NCBI GenBank assembly: GCA_001692895.1
Contig: KV748186.1
Coordinates: forward strand, 2,285,785-2,349,784
Reading direction: 5' to 3'
Length of the DNA stretch: 64,000 nucleotides
From: Cenococcum geophilum 1.58
Taxonomy: Eukaryota; Ascomycota; Dothideomycetes; Gloniales; Gloniaceae
The notes under the pieces are model-generated. The model was not told where the DNA came from, did not search any database, and saw nothing but the letters and a program-made list of their open reading frames with translations. A program made the translations under genes and the position numbers. This document shows positions 2,561 to 38,647 of the stretch, one piece after another; the stretch's first letter is position 1; each line of letters opens with the position of its first letter.

Positions 2561-2574
2561 GCCTTAAATATTTA

Positions 2575-4471: not shown

Positions 4472-4529
4472 TATATCGGGAAAATATTCGCAGGATGAGA
4501 TTCAAGTAGACTTTGGTTTTCGCGTTTCG

Positions 4530-5015
4530 CGTAATTAATATGCAATTTGACTAACTCGACACGCAATTAACTAACTTGATACGTAATTAACTAACTTAAT
4601 ATACAATTTAACTAACTTAATATGTAGTTAACCTACTTAACATGCAATTTAACTAACTTAATACGCAGTTGACCTACTTAATATGCAATTTAACTAACTT
4701 AACACGCAGTTGACCTACTTAATATATAATTTAACTAACTTAACACGCAGTTAACCTACTTAACATGCAATTTAACTAACTTAACACGCAGTTAACCTAC
4801 TTAATATACAATTTAACTAACTTAACACGCAGTTAACCTACTTAACATATAATTTAACTAACTTAACACGCAGTTAACCTACTTAATATGCAATTTAACT
4901 AACTTAACACGCAGTTAACCTACTTAATATATAATTTAATTAACTTAATACGTAATTAACCTACTTGATATATAATTTAACTAACTTAATATATAGTTAA
5001 CCTACTTAATAACTT
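4530..5015. repeat. Array of a 41-bp unit (20+21-mer dimer)
   Basis: Alternating half-units TTAACTAACTTAACACGCAG and TTAACCTACTTAATATGCAA-like give a period of 41 bp for about twelve repeats. Outer copies are more diverged than inner ones. It is AT-rich, unlike the next arrays, and was found only in copy A. Confidence 0.85.
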
Positions 5016-5087
5016 TAAAAGCTAACTGTATATTTCTTAACGTGCGATTAAGGTAAAGTTATATACTATATATTTAACTATTATATA

Positions 5088-5140
5088 TAATCCTATATAA
5101 TCTTATATAATCTTATATAATCTTATACAATCTTATAGTC
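5088..5140. repeat. Short 10-bp array (TATATAATCT)
   Basis: About five near-identical 10-bp units join the 41-bp array to the 12-bp array. Copy C has a different 10-bp array (TTTTGTATAT) at the other end of its cassette. Confidence 0.75.
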
Positions 5141-5151
5141 TTATTACTTGG

Positions 5152-5665
5152 AGGCTCTACACGAGGCTCTACACAAAGCTCTGCGTATAGAGGCTCTGCA
5201 CGAAGCTCTATATATAGAGGCTCTGCACAAAGCTCTGCATAAAGCTTCGCATAAGGCTCTTCACGAGGCTCTACACGAAGCTCTGCGTACAGAGGCTCTG
5301 CACGAAGCTCTGCACAAAGCTCTACACGAAGCTCTGCACGAAGCTCTGCACGAAGCTCTGCACGAGGCTCTGCACGAGGCTCTGCGCGAGGCTCTGCGCG
5401 AAGCTCTGCGTACAGAGGCTCTGCACGAGGCTCTGCGAGAAGCTCTGCGTACAGAGGCTCTGCACGAGGCTCTGCGCGAAGCTCTGCGTACAGAGGCTCT
5501 GCACGAGGCTCTGCGAGAAGCTCTGCGTACAGAGGCTCTGCACGAGGCTCTGCGCGAAGCTCTGCGTACAGAGGCTCTGCACGAGGCTCTGCGAGAAGCT
5601 CTGCGTACAAAGGCTCTGCACGAGGCTCTGCGCGAAGCTCTGCGTACAGGGCTCTACACGAAGCT
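5152..5665. repeat. 12-bp array (GAAGCTCTGCAC) with a 39-bp higher-order unit
   Basis: The basic unit is 12 bp, a form of GAAGCTCTGCAC or GAGGCTCTGCGC. From about 5408 a 15-bp variant (GCGTACAGAGGCTCT) joins two 12-mers into a regular 39-bp higher-order repeat. All units are multiples of three and lack stops, so several frames stay open: 207 codons on plus (5148-5771, peptide EALHEALREALRT) and 165 codons on minus (5113-5610, peptide AELRAEPRAEPLY). No promoter or start context supports expression. GC and CA/TG content is far higher than in the flanks. Confidence 0.9.
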
Positions 5666-5784
5666 CTGCATCAGGTCCCGCTATATTCCCGATAGCCTCT
5701 ACACGTCCTCTACCCTATGTAACCACCTTATTTTTTACCCTTCCTTCCTTCTTTATATCCTCCCTACCTAGGGAGGCACCAGAA

Positions 5785-6755
5785 CGGCAGCCAGCAGAGG
5801 ACCGTTGCTAGAACTAGACGACCGTCGCCAGAACCAGATAACCGTTACCAGAACTAGACGACCATCGCCAGCCAGACGACCGTCGCCAGAACCAGACGAC
5901 TGGTCGCCAGAACCAGACGGACTGTCGCCAGAACCAGACGACCGTCGCCAGCCAGACGAACCGTTACCAGAACCAGACGACCGTTGCCAGAGCCAGACGA
6001 CCGTCGCCAGAACCAGACGACCGTTGCCAGCGCCAGACGACCGTCGCCAGAACCAGACGACCGTCGCCAGCCAGACGACCGTTACCAGAACCAGACGACC
6101 GTTGCCAGAGCCAGACGACCGTCGCCAGAACCAGACGACCGTTGCCAGCGCCAGACGACCGTCGCCAGAACCAGACGACCGTCGCCAGCCAGACGACCGT
6201 TACTAGAACCAGACGACCGTTGCCAGAGCCAGACGACCGTCGCCAGAACTAGACGACCGTCGCCAGAACCAGACGACCGTCGCCAGCCAGACGACCGTTA
6301 CTAGAACTAGACGACCGTTGCCAGAGCCAGACGACCCGTCGCCAGAACCAGACGACCGTTGCCAGCGCCAGACGACCGTTGCCAGAGCTAGACGACCGTC
6401 GCCAGAACCAGACGACCGTTGCCAGCGCCAAGACGACCGTTGCCAGAGCTAGACGACCGTCGCCAGAACCCAGACGACCGTTGCCAGCGCTAGACGACCG
6501 TCGCCAGAACTAGACAACCGTCGCCAGCCAGACGACCGTTACCAGAACCAGACAACCGTTGCCAGAGCCAGACGGACCGTCGCCAGAACCAGAACGACCG
6601 TTGCCAGAGCCAGACGACCGTCGCCAGAACCAGACGACCGTCGCTAGAACCAGACCGACCGTCGCCAGAACCAGACGACCGTCGCCAGCTAGACGACCGT
6701 TACCAGGACCAGACAACCGTTGCTAGAGCTAAACGACCGTCGCCAAAACCAGACG
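5785..6755. repeat. 18-20 bp array (GACGACCGTCGCCAGAACCA)
   Basis: About 50 units of 18-20 bp built on AGACGACCGTCGCCAGAACC, with alternating CGCC/TGCC and AACC/AGCC/CGCC variants and some 14-bp short units (CAGCCAGACGACCGT). Unit lengths not divisible by three break the frames, so only short repeat ORFs exist. Each unit contains the near-palindrome GACGACCGTC. The array is present but short in copy B and absent or reduced to a trace in copy C. Confidence 0.9.
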
Positions 6756-6804
6756 ACAACGACTAGCTAGCCAATACTATAAACGATTCAATCGATTAAT
6801 TGAA

Positions 6805-7240
6805 TTAAGGTAGCACAGACAGGTAGGCATAAATAGGTAGATGCTAATAGGTAGGTAGATATAGACAGGTAGGTAGATATAGATAGGTAAGCAGATATAG
6901 ATAGGTAGGTAGATATAAATAGGTAAGTAAATATAGATAGGCAAAGCAGATATAGATAGGTAGGTAAATACTAATAGGTAGGTAGATATAATAGGTAGGT
7001 AGATATAGATAAGTAGATATAGATAGGCAGGTAGATGTAGATAGGTAAGTAGATGTAGATAGGTAAGTAGATATAGATAGGTAGGTAAATGCTAACGGGT
7101 AGGTAAATATAGATAGGTAGGTAGATGCAAATAGGTAGGCAAATGCAAATAGGTAGATGTAGATAGGTAGGCGATATAGATAGGTAGGTAGATGCAGATA
7201 GGTAGGCGATATAGGTAGGTAGGTAAGTTAATAGGTATAG
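6805..7240. repeat. TAGG-rich array (GATATAGATAGGTAGGTA)
   Basis: Units of about 16-22 bp combine GATATAGATA or GATGCAGATA with one or two GGTAG blocks. The same array type follows the 18-20 bp array in copy B and, in reverse orientation, follows the spacer in copy C. It ends in GGTAAAAGAGAACC, a junction shared with copy B. Confidence 0.85.
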
Positions 7241-7409
7241 TAGATAGGTAAAAGAGAACCATCGCTATATTATATTAAATTATCTAAAATAATAATATTT
7301 ATTTTGCTAGCCTTATAAATAGCTTTAAAATAGCTTTTATTTATTTAAAATATGCTATTAGTATAAAAGAGGTAAATATAATTATGGTTACCAAATGCGT
7401 AGATTGCTA

Positions 7410-7470
7410 GTAGGTTGCGTATAGGTTGCGCGTAGGTTGCGCGTAGGCTACGCGCAGGCTACGTGTCAAA
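7410..7470. repeat. Short array of TAGGTTGCGCG units
   Basis: About five 12-bp units (GTAGGTTGCGC, then GTAGGCTACGC) lie near the right end of copy A. They may be subterminal binding sites for a transposase, by position only. Confidence 0.6.
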
Positions 7471-7583
7471 AAAACACGACATAGGCTAGTCGGTCGAGTT
7501 GCTAAATGACCTTAACTGCGCGCTAATTGCGTTAACCACCAACCATTAAGGCCATTGAAAGGGTACCATATTTTGCCGATATA

Positions 7584-8315
7584 GCGGGTAGATTACTATA
7601 TAAGGCCGCCTAACCTATAGGGGGAAGCTAATAGAAATCGCCTACTAGCAAGATGTTTAAGCCTTTAAAGTAGTTATTATTATATATAGGGTAGATCTAA
7701 TAAAGGTAGCGATTAATCTAGGCCAAATATACTTACCCAATTATAGATTTCTTATTAAGGATAAGATAGTAAATATCCTTAAAAGCTTGTTATAGAGGCG
7801 TAAGACTAGCAGCAGGCAATTTCTTAAAGGGGCAATTCACTGGCAACCTTAATAGTTTGTATATAGTTTTACCATTAATATTAAAGGCAGCTACTCTAGT
7901 AGGGGCGGCTTAAACTAATAGCGACGGCTTGCTATTAGATATAGCTATATTATAGAGCGTAGTAAATAAAATAGCAATAAGATATAACTTACCGGTTCCT
8001 ACCTCTCCATTAACGTTAATCCGCAGTAGGGGGGGGGCTAAGGCCTACTTAGATCTGCCTGTAGTAATTAACTATAATATTATAGATATAACGCTAACCT
8101 AGTTATAAGGAGGACAGAGTTGCTGTTTAGGATAGGCGGCTCTATAGTAGAGGTTATAGCCATACTTTCTACTAATAAGTCCTCTTATTAAGCTACGGGT
8201 ACGTACCCTAATATATACTCTAGTCGTAGTTATAATTAAGCTTTTTATCACCAAGCCTATCAGGATCCTTAATTTTAACTCTATTAGTATTTTAAACGCG
8301 GGTATATAGGGCCTT
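7584..8315 (-). pseudogene. Helitron PIF1-like helicase, N-terminal motifs
   Basis: The minus strand shows RLGDKKLNYNYD-like linker sequence, then the Walker A region INVNGEVGTGKLYLI, then APTRVAAFNINGKTI (motif Ia) and ILLVGDFY followed by LPPIG (motif III). The invariant Ser/Thr after the Walker A lysine is Leu here, and the DE pair of motif II is gone, both explicable by C-to-T change. Stops interrupt the frame. It begins beside the LTR element (8316-8320 is the AAAGG copy) and ends at the TA at 7582, where the frame continues at 4471. Confidence 0.9.
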
Positions 8316-8320
8316 AAAGG

Positions 8321-8741
8321 TATAATAAAGCCTTATAGTAGAGACTACAGTAGACTTATTAATAGGCTAGGTATATAGGTATTACAAGTAAGTTAATAAC
8401 GTAATAATAACTGGTAAAGTGGTTGCCTAATAGATTAACTCCAATTATATTTTAAGAATTACTATAAGGAAGGAACTATCTAGGTAGGGACTAAGGGTCC
8501 TTAAATACACAACCGTACTTCTAAGAAAGTCGTTACTCTGTTTACTCTATCTGCTCTATTTGCTCTATTATAAATCTTACAGATTATATAGATTATATAG
8601 GTTATATTACGTAACTCTGCTTACTATTCCTTATTATATAGTTCCACTAGTTCTATTCTAGACCGTACCTATATTAACCAACTAGCTTCTTCTAGCTTTT
8701 CTCCAAGTAGTCGTAATATTATACTTAAAGCGTCCGTAACA
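8321..8741 (-). repeat. 3' LTR of Gypsy A1
   Basis: 421 bp, matching 17701-18121 along its whole length; the differences I noticed are C/T or G/A. The inner edge is followed by a purine-rich tract on the minus strand, as expected for second-strand priming. Confidence 0.9.
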
Positions 8742-11700
8742 CTATCTCCCTCCTTTTTATCTTCGTCCTTAAAGATTCTAAACATCTCTAAGTTGTTTAC
8801 TAGAGGTGTAATATCCGTCTAATTAATTTAGTTAATATTATTACTTATTATATCTAAAGTTTCTTCCTCTTCCTTAACTCTTTATTATACGCGTACAGTT
8901 TCTTCTATACTATTGCTTAGTAAGGTAATACCATCTCCATATTTCCGTTATGCGAGAAAGGGGTTAATTTGCGTTATATTAGCGAGCCCTTTATCTTAGC
9001 AACCCTCTTCTTATTTAGAGTGTACTAAAGTAAACATTTAATTGTCTTGTGATATTTGCTTAATTCCTAACGCTAAGTGTACGCGTCCTATAGTTCTTAA
9101 TAATTTCTAAGTTTCCTAAGTAATTTGTTATAGGGTCTTATATTTAATCTACTACTATAAAACTTAATAATAAACTGTCTATCGCTTTGGCGGAACTTTA
9201 TTATTCGCGTAACGCTAAAAAGAAGGCTACTAATGCTTAACAGCGGGCTCTTAACTCCCGTCTTGCTGCCTCTACTTAACTAATTCGTCTTAAGAAAGTA
9301 CGTAAAAAGGTCCGTTTTAAGGAGTGGAAACTTATGGAATAAGGTTTATAGGAGCTAGGTAATAAAAAAATAGATTCTCTTTTAACAGAGAAGGAAATAA
9401 CTCTAAGTAGTTTAGTAGTCGCTCTTTCTAGGTCCCCCTTAGGTAACTTATTCTTTAACAATCCTTCTTTATTAATGCTGCCTGACCTTTTCTCTTTTAA
9501 TACTCCTATACCTTTTCTATAGCATTCTTTAGGTTTTCTAGTGGCTTCTAGGTAGTCTTATTATAGCCTATCCACTTTACTTTATACTATATTTTATTAT
9601 CTATATCCTTATAACTAATAATCTTTAAAACTTACTATTTATCTTCTTCTTGCCCTCTATATATGTCTGCTTTATAAACTAGTGGCTTAACATTCCTATA
9701 TACTAGCTCTAGTATTGTAATATGCTATATAGGGTAGATCTTTATTTTAGCTAGTAGGTTTAACTTAAACATAACCGATGAAATTTTCTACGTAATTTTA
9801 AAAGGTCCTAGTCTAACATAGTCTAACTTCTTACTTAGTTATTAACTCTTAAAATTTTTATATAGTAGCCATACTTTATCTCCCTCCTTAAGATCTAGTC
9901 CCTTAGATCTCTTAGTATTATAGTACTTTTTTATTCTCTNTTATACNTTNTTTACTAATTCNATAAGGTCTATATAAAGATTTATTAACGTCTTTATTCT
10001 TTCTTTAGCTATACTACTCGTTTTCTTTACTTAACGTAGCGATAATAATATTCTTAGCTTATATCTATAATTCGCCTTAAATAGTAACATACCTATTCCT
10101 TCTTATAGTGTTACATTATATGCAAACTATATAACTAGTAATAGTAATACCTAATTATTCTGTACGTGATTAATATAATGCCTTAGATACTGCTCTAGTA
10201 TCTAGTTTAATCTTTCTATTTAACCGTCTGTCTGCGGATAATATACGGTGGAAGTTACTACTTAAACTCCTTACTCTGCTAAGAATACTTCCCAAAATAC
10301 TGCTATAAATCTTAGATCTCTATCTAATATAATCTTACTTAGTGCTCTATATCTTATAAACACTTCTTTAACATAGATTCTAGCAATATCTTCTACTAAG
10401 ATTTCTTCCGTATATATTATAAAGTATCCCCACTTTATAAGCTTGTCTACTATTACTAAGATTACGTTATAATCTTATCTAGTAATAGGATCTTTTAATT
10501 TTAGCAACTTAATAATAAAGTCCTATAATATAACCTCCTATAGTCTCTCTGGTATTTTAATAGGTTATAGCTCTTTATATAGCTTATACCTTATTAGTTT
10601 ATTCCTTTAATAATTTAAATACTCTTTAGTAACCCTTTTAGCTATCCTCTAGATTCCATTAATAATATACTCCTTCTAAAGTCTTAATACTAAGCCCATG
10701 GCTCTATTATATTCTTAAGTTAGTTCCTTATAGAAGTCCTCCATAAACTGCTCTACTATGCTTCTTAGGATATACTTCGCTTCTTAATTTTCGTATATAT
10801 CTATCTATAAATCCTCTAGCTATGCTTCTAGAATTCTTTATTCCTAAATGCTTTCCGGTATCTCGTAGACTTTCTCTAGTTTATTATCTTTTTAAGTTAC
10901 TATAATTTTTAGATAATTGTACCTAATTAACCTATCTATATTTTTTTGCAATAAAGCCCCTAATGGCTTCTCCTCATTTTATAGTTTGGCTTTACGACTT
11001 AGAGTATCTACCCTTATATTGTCTATACCTTTAGTATACTAAATCTTAAAATGGTATTCCGTAAGCATCTCTACCCATCTAACCTATCTTTAGTTAAGTT
11101 CCTTTATTATTAGAAATCCTATTAGGTTCTTATAATCTATTTTAACTATAAATGGTTTTTCTATACCTTATAAGAATGCTCTTTATTTCTTTAATACTGT
11201 AACTATACCTAATAACTCCTTGTTATAAATGTTATAGTTTAACTCTAGTAGTATTATCTTCTAACTATAGTATACTACTAGGTGCTATCCGTCTGGATAC
11301 TTTTATATAAAGTATACTCCTAGTATAAAGTCTAATATATCTATTTCTATAACCGTCTCTAGTTCTAGTTAATAGATCTTAAGAACTGGCTCCTAGGTAA
11401 ATAACTCTTTAACTTTCTTAAAGAGTTCTCTTTACTCCTTTCCCCATGCCTATAGTTCTTCTTTCTTTATTAACCGCGTAAATGGCTTAATGTCCTTTAA
11501 CTACTGCGCTATAAACCTTCTATAGTAATTACAAAACCCTAAAAACAATCTTAACTACGTAACGTTCTCTAGTTCCTACCAATTCACTATAGCCTTAATC
11601 TTTTTTAGATCTATACTAAGTTGGCCTAGTTTAATAATAAATCTAATAAAATCGGTCTTCCTAGTAAAGAACTTGTATTTCTTAATTATTACTAGCATCT

Positions 11701-13835
11701 ATTCTTCCTGTAGTCTCTTTAAGACCTATTTAATATATTTTCTATATTCTTCCTTACTCATTAAGTAGATAATAATATCGTTGAGGTATACTATAACAAA
11801 TTTATCTAAATATTCTCCTAATACATTATTAATATACTTCTAGAACGTTACTAGTGCGTTTATAAGCCCAAATTACATAACTAATAATTTGTATAGTCCT
11901 TCCTTTAACCTAAAGGCTACTTTCTATTCGTCGCCTTCCTTAATTCTGATCTAATAGTATACCTATCTCAGATCTATCTTTATAAAGATTTACGCATTGC
12001 CGATCCTATCTTAGATTTCGCTAATTAAGGGTAAAGAATACCTATCCTTCCTAGTAATGCTGTTTAACTATTTATAGTTAATACACAGCCTTAGTTTACC
12101 ATTCTTTTTTAGTATAAATAGTACTAGATAACCTGCTAATAACTACAATAGTCTAATATATTCCTTTTATAGATTTTCCTAAACAAACTCTTTTAACGCT
12201 CTACCTTCTTCTTTAGTAAGCTTGTAGATTAGAAAGAACCTTAGACTTATTCCTAGTTCCAATTTTATCTTATAATCTTATGCTGCATACTTTAACAGCT
12301 TTTTACTCTTAGGTGACTATAGTTTCTTACCATACTTATAGTATCTTTTTAGTATATAGCTTAGCCCTTTTTCCGTTTTTTTATAGGTCGCTCCTACTTA
12401 GTACCATACCAACTTAGCTTATTATTATATCTTACGGCGTTAAGTATCTCTAATATTGACCTAACCTATAACCTAATTAATCTTTAGATTATATTTCTGT
12501 AACTAAGGCATTCCTAATACTGCCTTATTATTTCCTAATAGTAATATATCGAAAGACATCTTAACTTATCTTCCTTTAATGGTTAACTAAATAGGTCCTG
12601 TTTTAAGATTAATAATACCTCCTCTATAGGCTATCGGATCTCCTAAAATTGTCACTAATAGGTAAGAATATTCCTTCTATCTGTGTGGTAACCCCATTCT
12701 TTTAACTGCTATTAGTAAGATATGGTTCCTTATTACTCTACTATCTATTAATACCTTAAACTATTAATCTTACCACTTAACTCGTAAATTTAGGTGTCGT
12801 CCTTAAATTCCTTTAAGGGTCTAAGGCTTTACCACTAGCTCCCTCTAGTCCTGTAGGCCTTTACTTTTCCTAACTATTAGCTACTTAATCCTAGTGCACT
12901 TAGCTTACTCTTTAGCTAATGCCTAGTTCGCTTTTTATCTTTAATATACTATAGATACGTATTTTCTAGGCATTCCTACTACTGTTGTCCATCTAAGCAT
13001 TCTTCCATAAGGAATCTTCCTGGTTAAAGTACTAAGCTTTCTTCCTCTTAGACCTCTACTAGATGCCATCTATATATATATTTAGCATTTCTATACTATT
13101 ACTTATCTATTATCTAGTATATCCTTATAGGGTATTTCCGATTCTTTTTCTTTGGATTTTTATATATTTCGTATATATCGTCTACGCACGCAATCTATAA
13201 TAACGTATAGTATACTAGGTGCTTTAGGTTAACTCTTAGTTTATCTTCGTCCCTAAGTTTAAACCTTTATTATACTAATCTAAACGTTATAACTTTATTC
13301 GCAGGTACTAAGATGCGTCTTTCGCTTCTCTAGTCCTTTAAACATTCCTTTAGATCCTTTAACGTTATAATTAAGGCTCCTTTAATATACGTTATGGCCT
13401 TTTCTATAATCGGGTAGTTCTAGATAACTTTTTTATCTAACTACATATAGAAATCTTCCTACTTATTATTATGCCTTTGCCTATACCACTTTTAGTACAG
13501 CTGCTGGAGTATATACAGTCTGTCCGTAAGGAAGTATCTTCTTATTACTGCATTATAACAGCCTTTAGTGTGTTGTTCTTCGAACCTAGTAGGAATTCCT
13601 AGATCCTCTTCTTATTCCAGTTCGGTAAGCCACTTAGCTCTTAGTATGCCTGTTCTAGGCCTATTAGTAACTCTTCGTACCGGCGCTCTGTCCTTTATAC
13701 GTCCCAATATACTAGATCTCTTGTCTAGTTTCTGTTCTTGCCATAAGGTAATTCTTGCCCTAAACTCCTCTATAGTTTCCTTTACGTCGCGTCTTACAAG
13801 TGGATCCTTAAAGTCTTTATACTTCTTAATCTTTA
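8742..13835 (-). pseudogene. Gypsy A1 pol region and 3' region (fossil)
   Basis: The pol part of A1 on the minus strand. The RT palm is recognisable from GKLRLCINY near 12100. The chromodomain is recognisable from YKVKWIGYNKTT near 9570. Integrase lies between them. The 0.7 kb between the chromodomain and the 3' LTR has no known domain but is present in all family A and B copies here. The piece is heavily broken. Confidence 0.85.
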
Positions 13836-15587
13836 TTCTGCCCTATACTAGCTCAAGCCTCGTTCCGGAAAATTCCTACGCCATACCGGAACAAATCGTC
13901 TTTAAAAAGAAACGATTTGTATATCGGTTTTACCGTCTTAATTCCGGAACAATTGCTTCATTCCGGAAAAGATCTTTAAAAGATTAGGCTAATTATAAGG
14001 TGGTATAGTAGCGCATAGCTATGCACGAATTGTGAAGCTCTTTAACATATATTATATTAATAACTTCGGTTTTCTTCCCCTCTTAATCTAATTGGTAAAT
14101 TATTATCGCATAACGTCCAAAATAGCCTTAAATTACCCCAACCATGCGTACACGACGTCGCTAAAACGGCTAGTTAATAAGCCTAAGTTTGGTAGTTCGT
14201 TTGTATTTTATACCTAAGTGCAAGGCATTTCTTGTAAAACCTCCTAAGGTGTTAATTTTCTTGTTGCAATTACCCGATTAGACTAGCGCAGGGGCTCTGA
14301 AAGTCGAACTTTAACGTCTGTTAAATTTTCTCATTCGTCCTTCCTTATTTACTGCCTCTACGCATAACTCAATTATATCCTCAACGAGATGTACGTCTTA
14401 TCTGTAAGTTCTAAATATATATTGACTTGATTGCCAGCTTGAATCTGACACCAGCAACAGCAATGTCAACCTCCGCGACAACCTCCGCGACAACCTCCGC
14501 GACAACCTCCGCAACAACTCCGCGACAACCTCCGCGACAACCTCCGCGACCACCTCCGCGACCACCTCCGCACCTAATGCGATTGCCTCTCCTTCTACTG
14601 CAGACGACTCCTACAACGTTTCTCACGCTATTTCTGCTTTTTTAGTTATAGTAAAGCCTGCATTTACTAAGTATCTGGAAGAAACCAGAGTTAACTAGCC
14701 TATAAGAGGCCATAGAAGGCTTACTAGTACTTAGCTAAGCGCTTAATCAAAGTGAGCCTAATAGGAGACCTTATCGCAAAGTCCTATACTACCTTAATTA
14801 ACAATAGCAAATAGAGAAGGTAATCAATTGAGCCTATTATAAAGGCTGCGTAAGACGAAGGAAAGGAAGACCATAAAGCGAGTAAGGTTGGCGACTAGGA
14901 GAAATCTAAATCGTAATCGCGCTAAACCTAAATAGGCAATTAGTCTATGGCTGGTAGAACCTCGGAGGGCCCGGTTTTTGAGAGATCTTGGTAAGATTAG
15001 AGCTTTGTAAGATTTTTAATTTTTGGTGTTAGGGAACGTAATTAATCACCCCCTACCTAACTAGCTTCCACTACTTGTAGGCTGTATCTATAACGCGGAA
15101 AAGCCTTTAAATATACTTATTAATCGTAGCGTAATCTGGTTTAGATGGAATTTAATAATATTATAGTAGTTAGAGGGGGGTAGTAAAATTTAATCCCTAG
15201 AGCCTTATAAAATCTTATTAAAAAATCAAGATTTTATATTTTTATCCTAAATATACTCCACTAGATAATAAATTATAATATTAAGGATATATTATTACTT
15301 ATTTTACGCCTAAAATTAATAAGATTATATATTAATTATTATTTATAACCATTGACTACACAGTACTTCCTAAATCTGCTTATAGAAATAGCTAAAATCT
15401 AACAAAAAGCTCTACTAAAAGCTTTATATAGCTTTAAATATAGTATTAAATCTTTTCTAGAATGACGCAATTGTTCCGGAATTAAGACGATAAAACCAAT
15501 ACATGATTTGTTCCTTTTTAAAGACGATCTATTCCGGTATAAAGCAGAAATTTTCCGGAACGAGCTGTGTGCCGATATGGGGCAGAA
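13836..15587. mobile_element. 1.75-kb TIR DNA transposon inside Gypsy A1
   Basis: Terminal inverted repeats of about 140 bp (13836-13980 and 15440-15587) start TTCTGCCC and contain several TTCCGGAA palindromes each. Comparison with the uninterrupted paralogues near 32390 and 53550 fixes the insertion. Flanks AATCTTTA and CATCTTGG fit a decayed 8-bp duplication, pointing to hAT or, given the long TIRs, Mutator-like. The interior has no recognisable transposase. It holds a 9-bp array (14465-14575) and a short open stretch after it (peptide STADDSYNVSHAISAFL) that may be captured coding sequence. Confidence 0.75.
14465..14575. repeat. 9-bp array (ACCTCCGCGACA type)
   Basis: About ten units of CTCCGCGACAAC-like sequence with a 12-bp period encode Thr-Ser-Ala-Thr runs on plus. 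A one-base difference inside the array shifts the frame between (TSAT)n and PRQP. The array is GC-rich against its flanks. Whether it was ever translated is unknown. Confidence 0.7.
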
Positions 15588-17700: not shown

Positions 17701-18121
17701 TGTAACAAAGCCTTGTAGTAGAGACTACGGTAGACTTGTTAATAGGCTAGGTATATAGGTATTATAAGTAAGTTAACAACGTAATAATAACTGGTGGAGT
17801 GGTTGCCCAACAGATTAACTCTAATTGTATTCTAAGAATTACTATAAGGAAGGAACTATCTAGGTAGGGACTAAGGGTCCTTAAATACACAACCATACTC
17901 CTAAGAAAGTTGTTGCTCTATTTACTCTATCTGCTCTATTTACTCTATTATAGATCTTACAGATTATACAGATTACACAGATTACATTACATGACTCTGC
18001 TTACCATTCCTTGTCACATAGTTCCACTAGTTCTATCCTAAACCGTGCCTATATTAACCAACTAGCTTCTTCCGGCTCTTCTCCAAGTAGTCATAATATT
18101 GTACTTAAAGCGTCCGTAATA
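17701..18121 (-). repeat. 5' LTR of Gypsy A1
   Basis: 421 bp. It begins TGTAACAAAGCC and ends CGTCCGTAATA in window orientation. The AAAGG duplication follows at once, then Helitron coding sequence. Confidence 0.9.
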
Positions 18122-18126
18122 AAAGG

Positions 18127-23330: not shown

Positions 23331-23344
23331 TATTATTAGAAGGT

Positions 23345-24030: not shown

Positions 24031-24059
24031 GCGTTCGCTGGCTATACGTTTAAACGGTA

Positions 24060-25331: not shown

Positions 25332-25562
25332 GATGTTTGTTTAAGAAGAAAAAAATTTGAGTTCAGTACATAGCCAAGTTTTGAAGATATTCCTTCGAAG
25401 TACATACCAAGAAATTCCAACACCATTCCAGCTTTCCGCTTGCAACATCAAGTCTCCATCGCCGCTGAACGCATTAACTACTCCCAATCCCGCCCCTAAA
25501 CCCAGCCCTCAGCCCACCCTCCGCCTTCTTCCCTTCCGCCAGGCTTGCTTCCCTCGATGCCG

Positions 25563-26812: not shown

Positions 26813-26887
26813 TATTACGGACCTTATATTAGTAGTAGTAGCACTACTAAGAAGAGATATAAACGGGTTAGTTAGGATAGTATAGGA

Positions 26888-27309: not shown

Positions 27310-30300
27310 CCATCTCCCTCTTCTCTATCTTCGTCCTTAAAGATACCTAGTATCTCTAAGTTATTTACTAGAGGTATAATGTCCGTCTAATTAATTTGGT
27401 TAATATCGTTACTTATTATACCTAAAGCGTCTTCTTCTTCTTCTTTAACTCTTTATTATGCGCGTATAGTTTTGTCCATACTATCGCTTAGTGAGATAAT
27501 ACCGTCTCTATATTCTCGTTGTGTGAAAAAGGGGTTAGTTTATATTACGTTGGCGAGTCCTTTATCTTGGCAACTGTCTTTTTATTTAGAGTGCACTAAA
27601 GCAAACGTTTAATTGCTCTGTGACGTTTGTTTTGTTTCTAATGCTAAGTATATATATCCTATTACTTTTAATAGTTGTTAAGTTCCCTAAGTAATTTGTT
27701 ATAGGGTTTTATATTTAATTTACTGCTATAAAGCTTAATAATGAACTGTCTATTGCTCTGGCGGAACTTCGTTATTCTTATAATGCTAAGAAGAAGGCTG
27801 CTAATGCTTAACAATATGCCCTTAATTTTCGTCTTACTGCGTCCGCTTAGTTAATCCGTCTTAAAAAGGTGCGTAAAAAGGTTTATTTTAAGGAGTAGAA
27901 ACTTATAAAATAAGGTTTATAGAAACTTGGTGATAAGAGAACTAACTCTCTTTCTATAGTAAAGGAAACAACTCTAAGTAGTTTAGTAGTCGCTCTTCCT
28001 AGGTCCCTCTTAGGTGGCTTATTCTTTAGCGATCCTTCTTTATTAATATTACCTAACCTTTTCCCTTCTAATACTCCTATACCTTTCCTATAGCATTCTT
28101 TAAATTCTCTAGTGGTTTCTAGGTAGTCTTATTATAGCCTATTTACTTTACCTTATACTATATTTTATTGTTAATATCCTTATAACTAACAATCTTTAAA
28201 ACTTGCTATTTATCTTCTTTCTATCCTCTATACGTGTCTGCCTTATAAACTAGTAGTTTAATATTTCCGTATGCTGGCTCTAGTATTGCGATATATTATA
28301 TAGGGTAGATCTTTATTTTAGCTGGTAGGTTTAACTTAAATATAACCGATAAAATTTTCTGTGTAATTTTAAAAGGTCCTAGTCTAATATGGTCTAACTT
28401 TTTACTTAGTCGTTAATTTTTAAAATTTTTGTGTAATAGCCATACTTTATCTCCCTCCTTAAGATCTAGTCCCTTAGATCTCTTAGCATTATAGTACTTT
28501 TTTATTCTTTACTATACCACCTTAGCTGTTTCCGTAAGGTCTGCATAAAGATTTATTAAATTCTCTATTCTCTACTTAGCTTTATTACTTATCTTCTTTA
28601 CTTAGCGTGGCGATAATAATATTCTTAGCTTATACCTATAATTCGCCTTAAATGGTAACGTACCTATTTCTTCTTATAGTGTTATATTATATATAAACTA
28701 TATAACTAGTAATAGTAATACCTAATTATTTTATGCGTAATTAATATAATGCCTTAAATACTGCTCTAGTATCTAGTTTAATCTTTCTATTTAACCGTCT
28801 ATCTGCAGATAATATGCGGTAAAAGTTACTGCTTAAACTCCTTACTCTGCTAAGAATACTTCCTAGAATACTACTATAAATCTTAGATCTCTATCTGATA
28901 TAATCTTACTTAGTACTCTATATCTTATAAATACTTCTTTAATATAGATTATAGCGATATCTTTCGCTAAGATTTCTTCTATGCATGCTATAAAGTATCC
29001 CCACTTTATAAGCTTATCTACTATTACTAAGATCGCGTTGTAATCTTATCCGGTAATAGGATCTCTTAATTTTAGTAACTTAATAATAAAGTCCCATAAT
29101 ATAACCTCCTATAGTCTCTCTGGTGTTTTAATAGGTTATAACCCTCTATATAGCTTATACCTCGTTAGTTTGTTTCTCTAGTAATCTAAATATTCCCTTA
29201 TAACTTGTCTTACTAGTCCCTAGATTTTATTAATAATATACTCCTCTTAAAGTCTTAACACTAAACCTATAGCTCTGTTGTGTCCTTAAGTTAGTCCTTT
29301 ATAAAACGACTTAATAAACTCCTTTGTGATAAATCTTGGCACGTACATTGCTTCTTAATTTTTGTACTGCTCTATATCTAAATCCTCTGCCTATACTTCT
29401 TAGATCTTCTATATTTAATTACTCTCTAGTAATTCGTAGATCTTTTCTTCTTATATTGCTGCGATTTTTGGATAATTGTACCTAATTAATCCGTTTATAT
29501 CTTTTCGCAATAAAGCCCCTAATGGCTTTTTGTTATTTTATAGTTTAGCCTTTTTACTTAAAGCATCTGCTTGTGCATTTTCTGTACCCTTAGTATACTA
29601 AATCTTAAAATGGTATTCTATAAGCATCTCTGCCTATCTAACCTATCTTTAGTTAAGTTCCTTTGTCGTTAGGAATCTTATTAGGTTCTTATAATTCGTT
29701 CTAACTATAAATAGTTTTTTTATGCCTTGCAAGAATGCTCTTTATTTTTTTAGTGCTGTAACTATACCTAATAACTCCTTATTGTAGATATTATAGTTTA
29801 ACTTTAGTAGTGTTATCTTTTAACTATAGTATGCTACTAGATGCTATCCGTCTAGATACTTTTATATAAAGTATGCTTCTAGTGCAAAGTCTAATGTATC
29901 TATTTCTATAACCGTTTCTAATCCTAGTTAATAGATCTTAAGAACTAGCTCCTAGGTAAATAACTCTTTAACTTTCTTAAAGAGTTCTTGCTATTCTTTT
30001 CTCTATACCTATAGTTCTTCTTTCTTTATTAACCGCGTAAATAGCTTAATGTTTTTTTAACTATTACGCTATAAACCTTCTATAGTAATTGCAAAACTCT
30101 AAAAATAATTTTAACTGCGTAACGTTCTCTGGTTCTTACTAATTTACTATAGCCTTAATCTTCTTTAGATCTATGCTAAGTTAGCCTAGTTTAATAATAA
30201 ATCTAACAAAATCTATCTTCCTTGTAAAGAACTTGCATTTCTTAATTACTACTAGCATCTGTTCTTCTTATAGTCTCTCTAAGACCTATTTAACGTATTT

Positions 30301-33300
30301 CTTATACTCCTCTTTACTTATTAAGTAGATAATAATATCGTTAAGGTATGCTATAACAAATTTATCTAAGTATTCTTTTAATACATTGTTAATTCGCTTC
30401 TAAAACGTTGCTAGTATGTTTATAAGCCCAAATTATATAACTAATAGTTTATATAATTCTTTCTTTAACCTAAAGGCTGCCTTTTATTTATTGCCTTCCT
30501 TAATCCTAATCTAATGGTATACCTATCTTAGATCTATCTTTATAAAGATTTGCGTATTACTAATTCTATCTTAGATTTTGCTAATTAAGGGTAAAGGATA
30601 CCTATCCTTTCTGGTAATACTGTTTAACTATCTATAGTTAATATACAGCCTTAGTTTGCTATTTTTCTTTAGTACGAATAGTACTGGATAACCCGCTAAT
30701 AACTGCGATGGTCTAATATATCCCTTTTATAAGTTTTCTTAGATAAATTCTTTAAGTGCTTTACCTTCCTCTTTGGTAAGCTTATAGATTAAAAAGAACC
30801 TTAGACTTATTTCTAGTTCTAATTCTATCTTATAGTCCTATACTATATACTCTAATAGCTTTTTACTTTCTAGTAACTATAACTTTTTGCTATATTTATA
30901 GTATCTCTTTAGTATATAACTTAATCCTTAATTAGTCTCTTTATATATTACTCCAACTTAGTACTATACCATCTTAGTTTATTATTATATCTTACGGTGT
31001 TAAGTATCTCTAATATTAACCTAACCTGTAATCTAATTAATCCTTAGATTATATTTCTGTAACTAAGGTATTCCTAATACTGTCTTATTATTCCCTAATG
31101 GTAATATATTAAAAGACATCTTGACTTATCTTCCTTTAATGGTTAACTAAATAGGTCCTATTTTAAGATTAATAATGCCTCCTTTATAGGCTATCGGATC
31201 TCCTAAAATTGTTATTAATAGGTAAGGATATTCCTTCTATCTATATGGTAACCCTATTCTTTTAACTACTGCTAGTAAGATGTGGTTCCTTATTGCTCTA
31301 CTATCTATTAGTGCCTTAAACTGTTAATTTTACCACTTAACTTATAAATTTAGGTGTTGTCCTTAAATTTCTTTAAGGGTCTAAGGCTCTACTACTGGCT
31401 CCCTCTAGTCCTATAGGCCTCTACTTTTCCTAACTATTAGCTGCTTAATCCTATTTATACTTAGTCTAACTTAGGCTAATACTTAGTTTGCTTTTTGTCT
31501 TTAATATACTATAAATAGGTATTCTCTAAATATTCCCACCATTATTGTCTATTTAGGTATTCTTCTATAAGGAATTTTTCTGGTTAAAGTATTAAGTCCC
31601 CTTATTCTTAAACTTCTATTAAGTGCCAACCATATATATACTTAGCGTTTTAATATTTTGCCTTATCCGTCATCTAATATATCCTTATTAAATACTTCCG
31701 GTTTTTATCCTTTAGTACTCTATATATATTACATGCATTATCTATATATGCTATCCACGATAGTGTATAATATGCTTAATACTTTAGGTTAACTCTTGGC
31801 TTATTTTCGTCCTTAAGTTTAAACCTTTCTTATATTAATCTAAGCGTTGCAACTTTGTTTGTAGGTACTAAAATTTATTTCTCGCTTCTCTAGTCCTCTA
31901 ATTACTTCTTTAGATCCTTTAACGTTATAATTAAGGCTCCCTTAATATAAGTTATTGCCTTTTCTATAATCGGGTGGTCTTGGATAACTTTTTCGTCTAA
32001 CTATATATAGAAATCTTCCCACTTGTTATTATGCCTCTGCCTATACTACTTTTAGTATAGCTACTTAAGTATATACGGTCTGTCTGTAAAGAAGTATCTC
32101 TTTATTACTGCGTCGTAATAACCTTTAGTGTGTTGTTCCTTAAACCTAATTAGAATCCCTAAATCCTCTTCTTATTCCAGTTTAGTAAGCTACTTAGCTC
32201 TTAGTGTGCCTGCTCTAGGCCTATTAGTAATTCTTTATACTAGCGCTTTATCCCTTATACGTCCTAATATACTAGATCTCTTATCTAGTTTCTATTCTTG
32301 CTATAAGGTAATTCTCGCTCTAAATTTCTCTATAGTTTCTTTTACATTACGTCTTATAAGTAGATCCTTAAAGTCTTTATACTTCTTAATCTTAGTATTA
32401 ACTTTTTGATCTTTAGGCTAAATACTATATTCCCCTAGTAAGTCCTTTAGGTCTATATATTTGTCTCTTAGTCTAATTGCTATTTACGCTATAGATTCTC
32501 TAATCTATAAAGAAGCTCCTTACCTCTTACTTATAGGTGTCCTAATCTACGCTCTAAATTCTTAACCCCTTAGATTCTTTAATTCTAAGCTTACTTCTAA
32601 CTTAAGCTTAGCTCTAGCCTTAGTCCAACTAGGCTTAACTAGTGTCCTTATCTTATCTTAAGAGTCCTAGATCTTACTTATCTTGTCTTAAAAGTCTTAT
32701 GCTATTAGGAATTCTTATCCCAAGCTTATTTATATATCTTTAAACTAAGCTACTACTCTACTCTATTGGTTTCTGTCTATTATGGGTCCTTAAGCTTGCC
32801 TTATCTTATCTTAAGAATCTTAGTCGTCTCTTATCTCGTCTTAAGAATCTTAAGCCTTTAGCCTTTTGCCTTTATTAAGTAGTAAGCTAGCACTAGCAGT
32901 CGTCTGCTTGCTTAATTGTCTTTAGATATTACTCCTTTTATCTTATAAAGCAATAGATGCNGTATCTAATGGTGTTATAATACCCATTACTAAACCTTAC
33001 TTTGTGGCGGTCTTAGTCTCTACTTTTATTACGTTATTAAGGTTTAAATACCCCCAGTTAGTTCCTTTACTATCCTTATTACTATTAATTAATAAGTACT
33101 CTAACTCTATTATTATTATTGCTAATTATTATCTATATATTACTATAACATCTTAATCTAGCTCGTAGAGTTGATTTTATTCTTTGTCTAACTCTTAAGT
33201 CCCTTTAAGTTCTCTTAACTTTGGTTTTTATGGCTAATAGCTTGCGCCGTACTTAGCGTCTTTATAAATTTAGTATGCGTTGTTATAATAAAACGCAAAA

Positions 33301-34504
33301 CTTCTAATTAAATACTCTTTTATTCCTTGCAGTATACTATTATCCCTCTATACGTATATATCTTCTACTATTAGTTAGGTTCCCTTTATTATATAGTAAC
33401 TCTAACCATCTTTATAATCCCTTATAAAATAACCTTGTTTCCTGTAATTTATATAAGCTCTATCTCTAAACTACTAACTCTATTATAGAGTCTGCCTAAA
33501 TGTCTTCTGCTAATAAGATCCCTAGTTTAGCCTATGCTCTTTAGTTTTATAATTACTAGATCCTTAACCTTTAGGTTTTTATAGTTTTTTACTCTATCTC
33601 TTATAGGCTTCTTTAGTACTGCTTAGGTCTATTAGCTCTGCGCTATACTATAGTTTCTAACTTAGCTTTTATTGTTGCGTGCTCTGCGCCTTATATAACT
33701 ATGGAATTCTGTCCTAACCTCTTTTAGTCTGTTCCCTTTGGAAGATCCTATTATTAATCTTAATTACTTAATCTATTAATTCCCTTAGGGTATCCGTATC
33801 TTTTATTAGAATAATTACGTCCTAGACTTTAGCCTTAAGTCCCTGTTTATACTATGCTATAAGCGCCCTATTATTCTACTTAACTTATATTACTAACGTT
33901 TGGAACTATGTTATATATTTAATAGCTAAGGTTTATTACGTAATATCTTAGAGTTTTCTTTTTGCTATAGTCGTTGCCTCCGGATCTCCGAATATTTGTA
34001 TAAGTCGCTCTATAAATCCATTCTAGCTTAAAAACATAAACTGTACTTCCTAGTTCGTTATCGTTATTCTATTTGCTTATATCTCTATAAGGTAAAACTT
34101 AAACTATTTAAGTGCTCTTCCTAATAAGAATAATCCTATATACGCTATTTAATCCATAGGTGTTACTAGCTTTACTCCCTCTTATATAACCTTAAAGTGC
34201 ATTTATATAAGGAATCCTTTAAGCTTTAATCTCTCTCCTAAGAATCTTTTAATCGATAGTAACTTAACCTTTACTACTCCTATCCCGTTAATCCGTTATT
34301 CCAGTACCGCATTATTTTCCATTAGTTAATTAACTATCTCTTATAGTTATCCGACCGTTATAAGTTGCTATAAGTCAGTATTTACTATACTGGTATTACC
34401 TCCTAACCTTAAAGTAGTTGCCGCCGTCAATAGCGTTATAGTGGCTGCTTTTAGTGGCATGTTATTCGACTTCTGTATTTGTTACTGTAATTAGGTAGTA
34501 ATTA
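27310..34504 (-). pseudogene. Gypsy A2 gag and pol region (fossil)
   Basis: The internal coding part of A2, collinear with A1 at 8742-17700 except that it lacks the TIR insert. It is broken in all frames. A 93-codon plus-strand frame at 32128-32409 lies antisense to it and is not a gene. Confidence 0.85.
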
Positions 34505-34926: not shown

Positions 34927-34941
34927 TAGGAGGCACTACAT

Positions 34942-35101
34942 TAGGAAAAAATTTACCAGCATTTATTTTTACTTTTTAGCTATTTTAGCATTTCCTAGCA
35001 TTTCCTAGCATTTCTAGCATTTCCTAGCATTTAGCAGCTAAATGCTAGAAAATGCTAAAATAGCAGAAAAGTAAAATTAAATACTGATAAATTTTTTCCT
35101 A
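34942..35101. repeat. 160-bp foldback block
   Basis: Arms of about 70 bp, built from TTAGCATTT and CTAGCATTT, fold around AGCAGCT. Both outer edges read AGGAAAAAATTTA. It could be the left subterminal region of copy B or a separate hAT-like MITE that landed at its edge. Confidence 0.75.
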
Positions 35102-35102
35102 A

Positions 35103-35460
35103 CGCATAGAGGCTCCGCATAAAGTTCTATATAAAGCTCTGCACGAAGTTCTATATAAAGCTCTGTATAAAGCTCTACATAAAGCTCTATATAAAGTTCT
35201 ATACAAAGTTCTATACAAAGCTCTACACAAAGCTCTATACGAAGCTCTATATAAAGCTCTATATAAAGCTCTATACAAAGCTCTATACAAAGCTCTATAT
35301 AAAGCTCTACACAAAGCTCTATATAAAGCTCTTATATAAAGCTCTATATAAGGCTCTACACGAGGCTTTATATAAAGCTCTACGTATAGAGGCTCTATAC
35401 GAGGCTCTGCGCGAAGCTTTGCGTAAAGTTCTATATACGGAGGCTCTACACGAAGCTCCG
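35103..35460. repeat. 12-bp array, copy B version (AAGCTCTATATA)
   Basis: About 28 units of AAGCTCTATATA or AAGCTCTACACA. It differs from copy A mostly by C-to-T and G-to-A changes, so it appears more RIP-affected. A higher-GC tail keeps GAGGCTCT units. Open minus-strand frames give repeats such as CRALYRALYRAL. Confidence 0.9.
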
Positions 35461-35580
35461 TATCGGGTCCCCGCTATATTCCCAATAGCCTCTACACATG
35501 CCTCTGCCAAGTATACCCCCTATATACACCTAGGTAGCCACCTTAATTTTTATCCTTCCTTATATCCTCCCTACCTAGAC
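35461..35580. repeat. Conserved cassette spacer, copy B
   Basis: Holds CGCTATATTCCC, AATAGCCTCTACAC, CCAAGTATACCCCCTATATA, CACCTAGGTAGCCACC and ATCCTCCCTACCTAG. Copy A has the same ends, and copy C has the same middle on the opposite strand. Confidence 0.85.
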
Positions 35581-35775
35581 AGCTAGTAGACGACCGTCAC
35601 CGGAGCTAGACGACTATCGCCGGAGCTAGACGACCGTCGCCGGAGCCAGATAACCGTCGTCAGAGCTAGACGACCGTCGCCAGAGCTAGACGACCGTCGC
35701 TGTCGCTAGATAACCGTCGTTATCGCTAGACGATCGTCGCCAGAGCTATACGACCGCTGCTAGAGCCATATGACA
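35581..35775. repeat. 18-bp array, copy B version (GACGACCGTCGCCAGAGCTA)
   Basis: About ten units of AGACGACCGTCGCCAGAGCT. It is followed by TTTAAACGACTAGCCAGCGAA, which copy C keeps although it lacks the array. Confidence 0.85.
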
Positions 35776-35844
35776 ACCATTTAAACGACTAGCCAGCGAA
35801 CACAATAAACGATTCGATCGATTAATCGAATTAAGGTAATATAG

Positions 35845-35882
35845 ACAGGTAGGCATAGATAGGTAGGCATAGATAGGTAGAT

Positions 35883-35915
<33 letters not shown>

Positions 35916-36155
35916 CAGACAGATAGATAGATAAATAGATAGATAGATAGGTAGGTAGGCAAGTAGGTAGGTAGGTAGGTAGATAGATAGGCAGGTAGGT
36001 AAATAGGTAGATAGGCAGGCAGGTAGGTAGGCAGGTAAGTAGGCAGGCAGGTAGGTAGGCAGGTAAGTAGGCAGGCAGGTAAGTAGATAGGTAGGTAGGC
36101 AGGTAGGTAAGCAGGCAGGTAGATAGGCAGGTAGGTAGGTAAGTTAGTAGGTAGG
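35845..36155. repeat. GATA/GGTA/GGCA array, copy B version
   Basis: Tetranucleotide blocks: GATA-rich first, then AGGTAGGCAGGT. It ends in GGTAAAAGAGAACCGTCGC, the same junction as in copy A. Confidence 0.85.
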
Positions 36156-36235
36156 CAGGTAAAAGAGAACCGTCGCTATATATTAAATTATCTAAAATAA
36201 TATAATTTATTTTACACTAACTGCGTAAGAAGAGC

Positions 36236-36450
36236 AAGATATATAAAATGTGCGAGAAGGGCATTATGTATAGAATGTGTAAGGAGGGCATTATGTATAG
36301 AATGCGTGAGGAGGGCATTATATATTAATTGCGCATTAAGTGCAAAATGCGTAATTAGCTACACCGCATTATTAAATACGGTAGTATACTATACTATATT
36401 ATTAAATACAGTAATATACTGCACCGTATTATTAAATACAGTAGTATACC
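36236..36450. repeat. Two short arrays with units of about 27 and 30 bp
   Basis: Three copies of GAGGGCATTATGTATAGAAT-like units come first. Three or four copies of ATTATTAAATACAGTAGTATA-like units follow. They were not found in copies A or C. A 71-codon frame at 36306-36521 crosses them and is not considered a gene. Confidence 0.75.
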
Positions 36451-36687
36451 GCACCTTAGTTAATACTATACGCTATACGTTATATTACGGACGCTTTAAG
36501 TATAATATTATAACTACTTAGGGAAGAGTTAGAAGAAGCTAGTTAGTTAATTTAAGTATAGTTTAGAATGGAGCCGGTAGAACTATATAACAAGGAATAG
36601 TAATTAAGGTTATATAACGTAATCTATATAATTTATAGAATCTATATAATCTATAATAGAGTAGATAAAGTATACGTATATTATGTA

Positions 36688-38021
36688 CAATTATCTACAG
36701 AAAGTTATTAGCCGAAGCTAAAAACGCCAATTGATAACGTCTACCCCACCTATTTTGGTAGAGGACTTCGTGACCAATTGGCAAGCAATTCTAAAGCAAT
36801 TTAAATATATAATAGATTTATATCTAGAGAATATTTTAGTATAGCAGAGCCCTAATGTTTAATTAAGCCTCCCTTAGCTTTAATTACTAATTCACAACGC
36901 CTCCTTATACTCTCAATATACGCCCTCCAATCGGTAGGGGTTAATTTATCCCATTCCTCTTATAGTACAGCCTCTATCTCTTATAGATTGTTAATTAAGT
37001 AGCGCCTCTTAGATATCCAAAGCTTTATAATCCTCTAAAGGTACTTAATAGGATTTAAATCGGGAGACTGCGCAGGCCAAGGAAGTACCTGTATTTTAAG
37101 ATCTTTAAGGTGCTATAAGGCAGCCTTTGACGTATGGTACCCAGCTCCATCCTGCATAAAAACAGCGTTACCGTATTTAAGTGTTCTCTTAACGTAGAAA
37201 GGAGCCGCATGGGGTGTTAGGATCTCGTTGATATACCTATAAGAGTTCATGCGTGCTCCTTTTTTTAATATCACGAATCCTCCCTTAAATTCGAGTGAGA
37301 TCTCGCCCTAAATACCCACGGAGCTCCTTCCTAATTTGAATGTAGGCTTAAGGTTCTTTAACTTATAGGCTTCGCCTATTTTGCGACGTGCCTAGGGGGG
37401 CCTTAAGTTAATTCCAAGCTTAAACGTTAATTTGTTAGAAAAGCCAACTAGAGCCTAGTTGCTTAACTCTAAATCTCTATATATTTAGGCCCACCGCAAT
37501 CTTAAAGTCTTATAGTAAGGCCTTAGATAAGGCTTCTTCCGAGGACGGAAGGCGTAGTAGTGGTTTTTAGCGAGGTAACGTCGCGTAGTATTAATATGCA
37601 TGCGGTAACCCAATTTTAACGGCGTTAATAGGGAGGTAATTGTTTTAAAGGGGTGGTTGGCTGTAAACCTTACTAAACGTCGTTCAGCTTGTGCATTAAG
37701 CTTTAGAGGACGTCCTGTATATAGAGCTTTACAAAAGGGGTTACTAGGGTGTTTTCGTACTCGGCAAATGATCGATATAATTGTTGACTTTAGCAGCCCG
37801 TTTTCGAGTCATATTTTTAAGGCAGAGTACCCCATGTAATATAGGGCCCATATTACCGAAATAACCTCAGGAGGATGCTCCTGTCGATTTGTTTTCTTTT
37901 AATATACCATAGTTGGTGTATGGGGCGGTAGAAGGGGGGGTAAAAAACGATCAAAGTATTGAATGGTGGTGGCTTAACCTCGTATTCGCCAAATCGACCA
38001 ATGACTTTCTGTAGATGATTA
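36688..38021 (-). mobile_element. Tc1-type DNA transposon
   Basis: A 1,334-bp element between two TA dinucleotides (36686-36687 and 38022-38023). Inverted ends read CAATTATCTACAGAAAGTTA on the left and TAATCATCTACAGAAAGTCA from the right, about 28 bp with transition differences. It encodes one transposase on the minus strand. The target, TATTATG-TA-CAAGAAGG, is LTR sequence also present unbroken near 51283. Confidence 0.93.
36852..37910 (-). pseudogene. Tc1 transposase, catalytically dead
   Basis: About 352 codons from the ATG at 37910 to the stop at 36852, normal for Tc1. The N-terminal half carries two helix-turn-helix regions, with GRPLKLNAQAERRLVRF between them. The DD34E core follows. 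The first catalytic block reads VGFSNKLTF where FSDE is usual, so both acidic residues are lost (D to N, E to K). The second keeps MQDGAGYHTSK. The third reads WPAQSPDLNPIKYL where PIE is usual, so the glutamate is Lys. Two of three catalytic acids are gone, each by a G-to-A change. A few stops interrupt the C-terminal half. It ends GGLIKH. Confidence 0.95.
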
Positions 38022-38647
38022 TACAAGAAGGATTTTATAGGAGTACGGTTATATATTTAAGGACCCTTAATCCCTACCTAGATAGTTCCTTCCTTATAGT
38101 AATTCTTAGAATATAATTAGAGTTAATCTGTTAGGTAACCACTCTACTAGTTATTATTACGTTGTTAACTTTAATTTGCATTACCTACACACCTAGCCCA
38201 ATAACGAGCCCATTGTAGTTCTTGCTACAAGGTTCCATTACACGTTATAGTGCGCGGAATACGCATTTAGCCGCCAAATGCTGCCAAATGCTGTAAAAAT
38301 GCTAGTAAATTTTTTCCTGACGTAGAGCCGATTAAACTAGGATAAGGGGTAGCTAAGTTATATAGTTAGTTATATTATAAGTTTAAAATATAGAAATGTA
38401 GAAATATAGAAATATAGGCGACGTACTAATATACTAACGTACTGACGTACTTAGTATATTCCTTAGGCGCAGTATTATATATTTAAAGGACTACAGTTCC
38501 TACCTAGATAGTTCTCTTCTTAGTAGTAAATCTTAGAATTAGGAAACCTACTCTACTAGTTATATTATTATTATTAACTTAACCTATACCTATATACCTA
38601 GCCTATTAATAAGTTTACCGTAGTATTTCCTATAAGGCTTTATTATA

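Follow-up and report, generated by a model that had tools for sequence, protein, structure and literature searches.

A common minisatellite core in three transposon-like elements with related ends and differing outer DNA in Cenococcum geophilum

Tandem repeats within miniature inverted-repeat transposable elements (MITEs) and foldback elements of animals and bacteria are already established (PMC4079207, PMC12628747, PMC4596501; statements on these and all other papers cited here refer to portions of their text). Here we analysed a window, i.e. a stretch of 64,000 nucleotides, of the fungus Cenococcum geophilum 1.58 (assembly GCA_001692895.1, contig KV748186.1, positions 2,285,785 to 2,349,784 of the forward strand), which is rich in repeats and in which three elements, termed A, B and C, carry a common core of ordered minisatellite arrays. 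We lean towards the view that A and B, and with less certainty C, are cut-and-paste DNA elements that are non-autonomous and have one terminus type, and that the core has been re-clothed with related MITE ends. The three copies inside this 64-kb window are the evidence base for all results below.

Tetris, a foldback element of Drosophila virilis, resembles these elements in its apparent lack of autonomy, its modular build, its tandem repeats in the interior and the occurrence of rearranged forms. It has long terminal inverted repeats (TIRs) that contain the repeats and duplications of 8–10 bp, in contrast to the short tips, the TA duplication (A and B) and the central arrays found here (PMC4079207). 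A similar likeness exists to miDNA4 of Xenopus, a Tc1/mariner MITE with a variable internal tandem array for which an origin by capture of an already existing repeat has been proposed; miDNA4 is non-fungal and holds one satellite, whereas the present core consists of three ordered arrays with spacers (review PMC12628747). BrickBuilt of Porphyromonas gingivalis is likewise a minisatellite in a MITE with short inverted ends. Unlike the elements described here it is bacterial, built of a single 23-nt repeat and intergenic, and the portion of the paper cited describes no shell exchange (PMC4596501). In MITE superfamilies of Mycosphaerella graminicola equal TIRs and duplications go together with differing interiors, and 8 of 13 families have a TA and 1 of 13 a CT duplication. 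The cited portion describes no minisatellite cores for them, whereas here the core is common and the subterminal DNA differs (PMC4522978). Neither a fungal element of this architecture nor a core of three ordered arrays occurring in a number of related shells was found in the literature searched, most subscription journals being outside its coverage. The elements, their tips and their core modules are as follows:

4474–7581, plus strand: element A, with TIRs and no recognised transposase; duplicated TA at 4472–4473 and 7582–7583; supported by the restored helicase frame; tips TATCGGGAAAATAT / TATCGGCAAAATAT
5151–5670, plus strand: core of A, 12-bp array GAGGCTCTGCAC, 40 units counted (Tandem Repeats Finder, TRF)
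5671–5794, plus strand: spacer 1 in the core of A (outscores all 500 shuffles when aligned to B and C)
5795–6757, plus strand: core of A, 20-bp array CAGACGACCGTCGCCAGAAC (TRF)
6758–7305, plus strand: core of A with spacer 2, the TAGG-type array and the exit sequence (TRF; alignment to B for spacer 2 and the exit sequence)
34939–38322, plus strand: element B; TA duplication at 34937–34938 and 38323–38324; supported by a paralogous empty site; tips CATTAGGAAAAAATTTAC / CGTCAGGAAAAAATTTAC (CATTAGG and CGTCAGG)
35105–36213, plus strand: core of B (TRF, alignments)
23431–25335, minus strand (reversed): element C, with N bases near 23555–23601; CATCAGG tips at both ends (tip scan, matrix, flank comparison)
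23788–25100, minus strand: core of C, 12-bp array with an inverted stretch, spacer 1 (about 24069–24170), degenerate 20-bp unit and TAGG-type array

Arrays were detected with TRF, and homology was assessed by comparing alignment scores with 500 shuffles per pair. The modules of the core follow the order 12-bp array, spacer 1, 20-bp array, spacer 2, TAGG array. The original prediction had described the arrays and their order in all three copies, and TRF bore this out. In B the 12-bp array is followed by spacer 1 (about 35461–35586), the 20-bp array (35587–35756), spacer 2, the TAGG array and the exit sequence. The 20-bp array is present in A and B; C, read by eye, has one degenerate unit. Outside the repeats, the alignable portions of the core are 87–95% identical between copies. 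The spacer homology claimed earlier was confirmed, since for spacer 1 all three pairs score above every one of the 500 shuffles: 142 against a shuffle maximum of 34 for B–C (84 identities and 5 mismatches, gaps apart), 80 against 33 for A–B (89 and 5) and 96 against 35 for A–C (62 and 4). Identity is nearly equal across the three pairs, at 94–95% of ungapped columns. Spacer 2 scores 89 against a shuffle maximum of 33 for A–B and 37 against 32 for B–C; for A–C its score of 14 is within chance (shuffle maximum 26). The exit sequence that A and B had been said to have in common was also recovered, with 58 identities, 5 mismatches and a score of 92 against a shuffle maximum of 41. Neither A–C nor B–C rises above the shuffles for this sequence, and no exit is detectable in C. 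The shared core of A, B and C is real, its non-repeat parts being homologous above shuffled controls. The spacer, exit and array patterns gave 0 matches in viral and prokaryote contigs, which is weak evidence because these collections are non-fungal. Rfam gave no match, and ARAGORN in its bacterial setting found no tRNA.

Element A is one TA-duplicating insertion. The DNA on either side of it encodes parts of a PIF1-type helicase on the minus strand (Pfam). When A is excised together with one TA, the two helicase halves share one frame; when both TAs are kept, the frames differ. In the joined protein Pfam places PIF1 at residues 6–143 and Pif1_2B at 277–306, one on each side of the junction, and no Pfam match itself spans it. 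The stretch from AALYSN to VMRQ, which lies over the junction, is one that we take to be PIF1-helicase-like. The restored frame holds in-frame stops on both sides, as a decayed copy would. The TATCGG ends and TA duplication ascribed to A by the original prediction are thus upheld. The same prediction allowed for the possibility that these ends are those of an unrelated element that lies next to the core; this was rejected, as the frame test unites 4474 to 7581 in a single insertion. The sequence into which A inserted looks like a decayed Helitron: Helitron_like_N (2.4e-18) and DUF6570 (5.9e-21) were found at 18120–21400 on the same strand as the helicase. This apparent Helitron (DUF6570, Helitron_like_N, PIF1; 18120–21400 and 2450–8330, minus strand) is split twice, by element A and by a long terminal repeat (LTR) element, LTR element 1 (8321–18121, with AAAGG on each side).

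Element B is a TA-duplicating insertion as well. Besides its core it contains or relates to the following features:

34939–35104, plus strand: left end of B, a near-palindromic MITE-like unit of 166 bp with 63-nt arms, 90% complementary (tip scans)
36483–38242, minus strand: solo LTR in B, target-site duplication CGTTA at 36478–36482 and 38243–38247; its halves match six LTR copies by self-BLAST
36684–38022, minus strand: Tc1-type element within the solo LTR (limits set by eye)
48005–48203, plus strand: paralogous empty site of B in a related repeat, TA at 48083–48084

Aligned with the flanks of B joined over one TA, the empty site scores 244, with an ungapped junction; the left flank alone scores 125 and the right flank alone 124. 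The flanks overlap at the empty site by exactly TA, which sets the limits of B at 34939–38322. Its limits, given before as 34942–38319, are hereby corrected. With the earlier coordinates an 8-bp duplication matches at only 3/8 positions. The claim that B ends in the style of a hAT element was not borne out, and membership of B in hAT was rejected, as there is no 8-bp duplication and the empty site shows TA.

B is composite, with the whole near-palindromic MITE-like unit on its left and a single end on its right. The inner end of the 166-bp unit repeats the tip sequence (tip scans), and among the ends examined only this left end is a long near-palindrome. The empty site shows left unit, core and right end to have moved together, with the outer pair of ends acting as one unit. 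About 1.76 kb of B are a later solo LTR with the 5-bp duplication CGTTA; after subtracting it, B originally measured about 1.6 kb. The Tc1-type element nested in this LTR has HTH_Tnp_Tc3_2 (3.5e-11) and DDE_3 (7.2e-10) in one frame when stops are read through (Pfam). On its left B is adjoined by LTR element 2 (27310–34480, minus strand; TAGGA on both sides), in which reverse transcriptase and RNase H domains lie in two frames.

Tips were compared by means of 12-base position matrices scored at 20,036 TA-preceded sites or at 127,404 positions. The tips of A, B and C have the common motif YRTYRGSAA. With a matrix built from B and C, the left tip of A ranked 3rd of the 20,036 TA-preceded sites, behind only the ends of B itself, and the right tip 31st; when the training sites were excluded they ranked 1st of 20,034 and 29th. 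Conversely, a matrix from A and C placed the ends of B 3rd and 4th among TA-preceded sites, behind only those of A, and a matrix from A and B ranked the ends of C 1st (left) and 23rd (right) of 127,404 positions. The longer pattern TA+YRTYRGSAAAA, picked after the ends had been seen, occurs four times, once at each end of A and B, compared with a mean of 0.15 in simulated sequences (n = 20). TIRs are present in all three elements, with lengths judged by eye of about 14 bp (A), 26 bp (B) and 33 bp (C). The long TIRs with internal tandem repeats that are typical of foldback elements are absent, the tips being short.

That A and B share one tip type is well supported. A has a TA duplication by its restored frame and B by its empty site, while C as it stands reads AA/AA. 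A superfamily name for A and B would be drawn from the TA duplication alone. The flanks match over 8 bp at 1/8 positions in A, 3/8 in B and 6/8 in C, so that A and B lack the duplication of a hAT element. The original prediction had contrasted a Tc1/mariner-style A with a hAT-style B and C; this contrast is not supported, as B duplicates TA like A and the tips fit one motif. A single terminus type among all copies, which that prediction had set against its own proposal, is largely what we found, although among three copies only. In addition, a tip-like sequence lies in spacer 1 on the minus strand, at 5694 in A and 35487 in B (TATCGGGAATAT / TATTGGGAATAT), near the border of the 12-bp array. 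Over all positions the one at 5694 is the best non-training match to a matrix from the tips of A; it has no TA flank. It may be the relic end of an earlier, shorter element, and nothing is built on it here.

Next to this likeness of the tips stands the outer DNA of the three copies. Its subterminal parts were compared in 12 between-copy comparisons (six pairs, two orientations) against 300 shuffles, and there is no convincing alignment. The best pair, A left against C left in inverted orientation, is reached by 2/300 shuffles, which is unconvincing after twelve tests; the next, A right against C right, is reached by 13/300 in both orientations. Within B the two subterminal regions resemble one another (0/300 shuffles reach their score). 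The tips differ at 9 (A–B), 8 (A–C) and 5 (B–C) of 24 positions, the aligned core columns at 19/224, 4/66 and 8/115, respectively (Fisher p = 0.0003, 0.002 and 0.049). The contrast is weakened by the fact that core columns were taken from local alignments, which favour similarity. From the more divergent tips and the lack of a convincing alignment of the subterminal DNA we read the core as younger than the shells holding it, and the shells as distinct though related; they give the impression of separate families that have a terminus type in common. Of the earlier claim that the core sits in different shells, the distinct and related shells therefore stand, and the separate transposon classes do not hold for A versus B.

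Plain descent would be the main alternative, although we regard it as rather unlikely. Under this explanation one ancestor already carried the core, and subterminal DNA alone was lost and regrown via array turnover and deletion. The shared tips and the equal order of core modules fit such a history, as does the fact that the subterminal stretches consist partly of arrays (41-bp, 10-bp, 11-bp, 27-bp, 30-bp and 9-bp; TRF). It has difficulty in accounting for core columns that differ by 6–8.5% next to subterminal DNA without convincing alignment, and for tips that diverge more than the core, the latter with the weakening by local alignments just given.

A second alternative concerns element C, whose limits of 23431–25335 presuppose that the tips are read as CATCAGG. 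C could be a hAT element, with or without B, and A a Tc1/mariner element, so that the core would have moved between superfamilies. The flanks of C can be taken as a 2-bp duplication AA/AA or as an 8-bp one, ACAAACAT/ATGAACAT, with a 6/8 match, and the chance of a match of at least 6/8 is about 0.004–0.007. In addition, the CAGG-like tips are ones that we take to resemble hAT tips. On the other hand, B has no 8-bp duplication (3/8) and duplicated TA at its empty site, and the tips of C match those of B including the outer CAT or CGT. The latter likeness favours the same terminus type for C as for B, and we consider the superfamily switch improbable. The Pfam scans, covering part of the window, detected no hAT domain. 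Of the 8-bp duplication originally predicted for C, the likeness of the flanks was retained, an exact duplication was not, and the AA/AA reading competes with it. When the joined flanks of C were searched by BLAST in the window, no convincing empty site emerged. In Paracoccidioides 61.6% of Tc1/mariner copies insert specifically at TA sites (PMC2836289), and the non-TA sites recorded for fungal elements in the cited portions of two papers bear on the AA flanks of C (PMC2836289, PMC4522978).

That the core is an independent mobile unit inserted into each shell is very improbable: the 12-bp array opens the core in all three copies and the likeness between A and B stops at the same point past the exit sequence, but the core of C ends within the TAGG array with no exit detected, and no duplication or common tip was seen by eye at the core limits.

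In our favoured explanation, re-clothing of the core with related MITE ends, the minisatellite core would be a passenger. As Pfam recognised no transposase domain in the frames scanned, namely all six of A, all six of the portion of B to the left of the solo LTR and the three of the minus strand of C, we presume dependence on an outside transposase, which would be common to A, B and C. If related MITE ends came to lie on both sides of the core, this transposase could take the outermost pair, and everything between would move. An arrangement of this kind is preserved in B. Composite transposition by a shared transposase would then be the simplest account of the change of shell that we infer, while the arrays in the core may grow and shrink through slippage or unequal exchange. 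More tentatively, the ordered core might be a long-lived passenger that has changed shells repeatedly, caught between related MITE ends, so that it is the core that persists and spreads in this genome and not any single transposon family.

Several observations weigh against this explanation. The window yielded no transposase bearing such tips, and the ends of the Tc1 and pogo elements residing there are different as judged by eye. The inner end of the 166-bp unit in B continues with CA and then TA, so that TA is not immediate. With a matrix from A only, the ends of B ranked 62nd and 110th of 20,036 TA-preceded sites and those of C 56th and 349th of 127,404 positions; this weaker result means that the tip homology depends partly on pooling. 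The short motif YRTYRGSAA is not rare by itself, with 22 occurrences in the window, of which the ends of A, B and C make up 6, and in the right tip of A a C replaces G at position 7. Furthermore, C is flanked by AA instead of TA and has the 6/8 reading given above, and only three copies could be compared.

The arrays themselves differ between the copies. In A, TRF detected higher-order periods of 39 bp in the 12-bp array and 78 bp in the 20-bp array. The 12-bp array of C (24168–25100) contains inverted 23-bp blocks, so that the unit runs in both orientations. Together these features point to array growth within each copy. Relative to a 12-bp reference unit of our choice, 81 of 95 differences in the 28 units of B are C>T or G>A, compared with 27/73 in A and 36/52 in C (part 24651–25100). 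This fits an erosion of the array in B by transitions like those of repeat-induced point mutation (RIP), and the window is RIP-like in composition (dinucleotide indices). Immunity of the arrays to RIP was rejected, since the 12-bp array of B shows more erosion than those of A and C. Pfam gave a weak match to DUF826 in the 12-bp array of A (2.1e-5; 25.0 bits, equal to its cut-off), and FAF, Pus10_THUMP_arc and SOG2 matched below their cut-offs. No stretch passes alone, DUF826 included, and we take all four as translations of repeats.

Further inverted repeats and a transposon were noticed in the surroundings. Positions 25125–25297, in the left subterminal region of C, form a nested inverted repeat of the TTAGGGTCTGC type with 20-nt arms (85% complementary), perhaps another MITE. 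A Pogo/Fot-type element on the minus strand (query range 21600–23403; DDE_1 1.2e-17, HTH_psq 9.8e-5) apparently ends about 20 bp from C, and its end sequence recurs at 491–549. Another near-palindrome, 418 bp long (48359–48776) and self-complementary at about 80%, has ACGTARTCGGTAAGTAACC ends beside TA and is perhaps a pogo-type MITE.

The change of shell proposed here would be no evidence for movement between transposon superfamilies. If our explanation is true, a core whose alignable portions are about 92–94% alike within differing outer DNA would show by what route minisatellites become scattered over a genome and non-autonomous elements come by new ends. It could likewise help to explain why minisatellites are scattered in the RIP-affected repeat regions of fungi.

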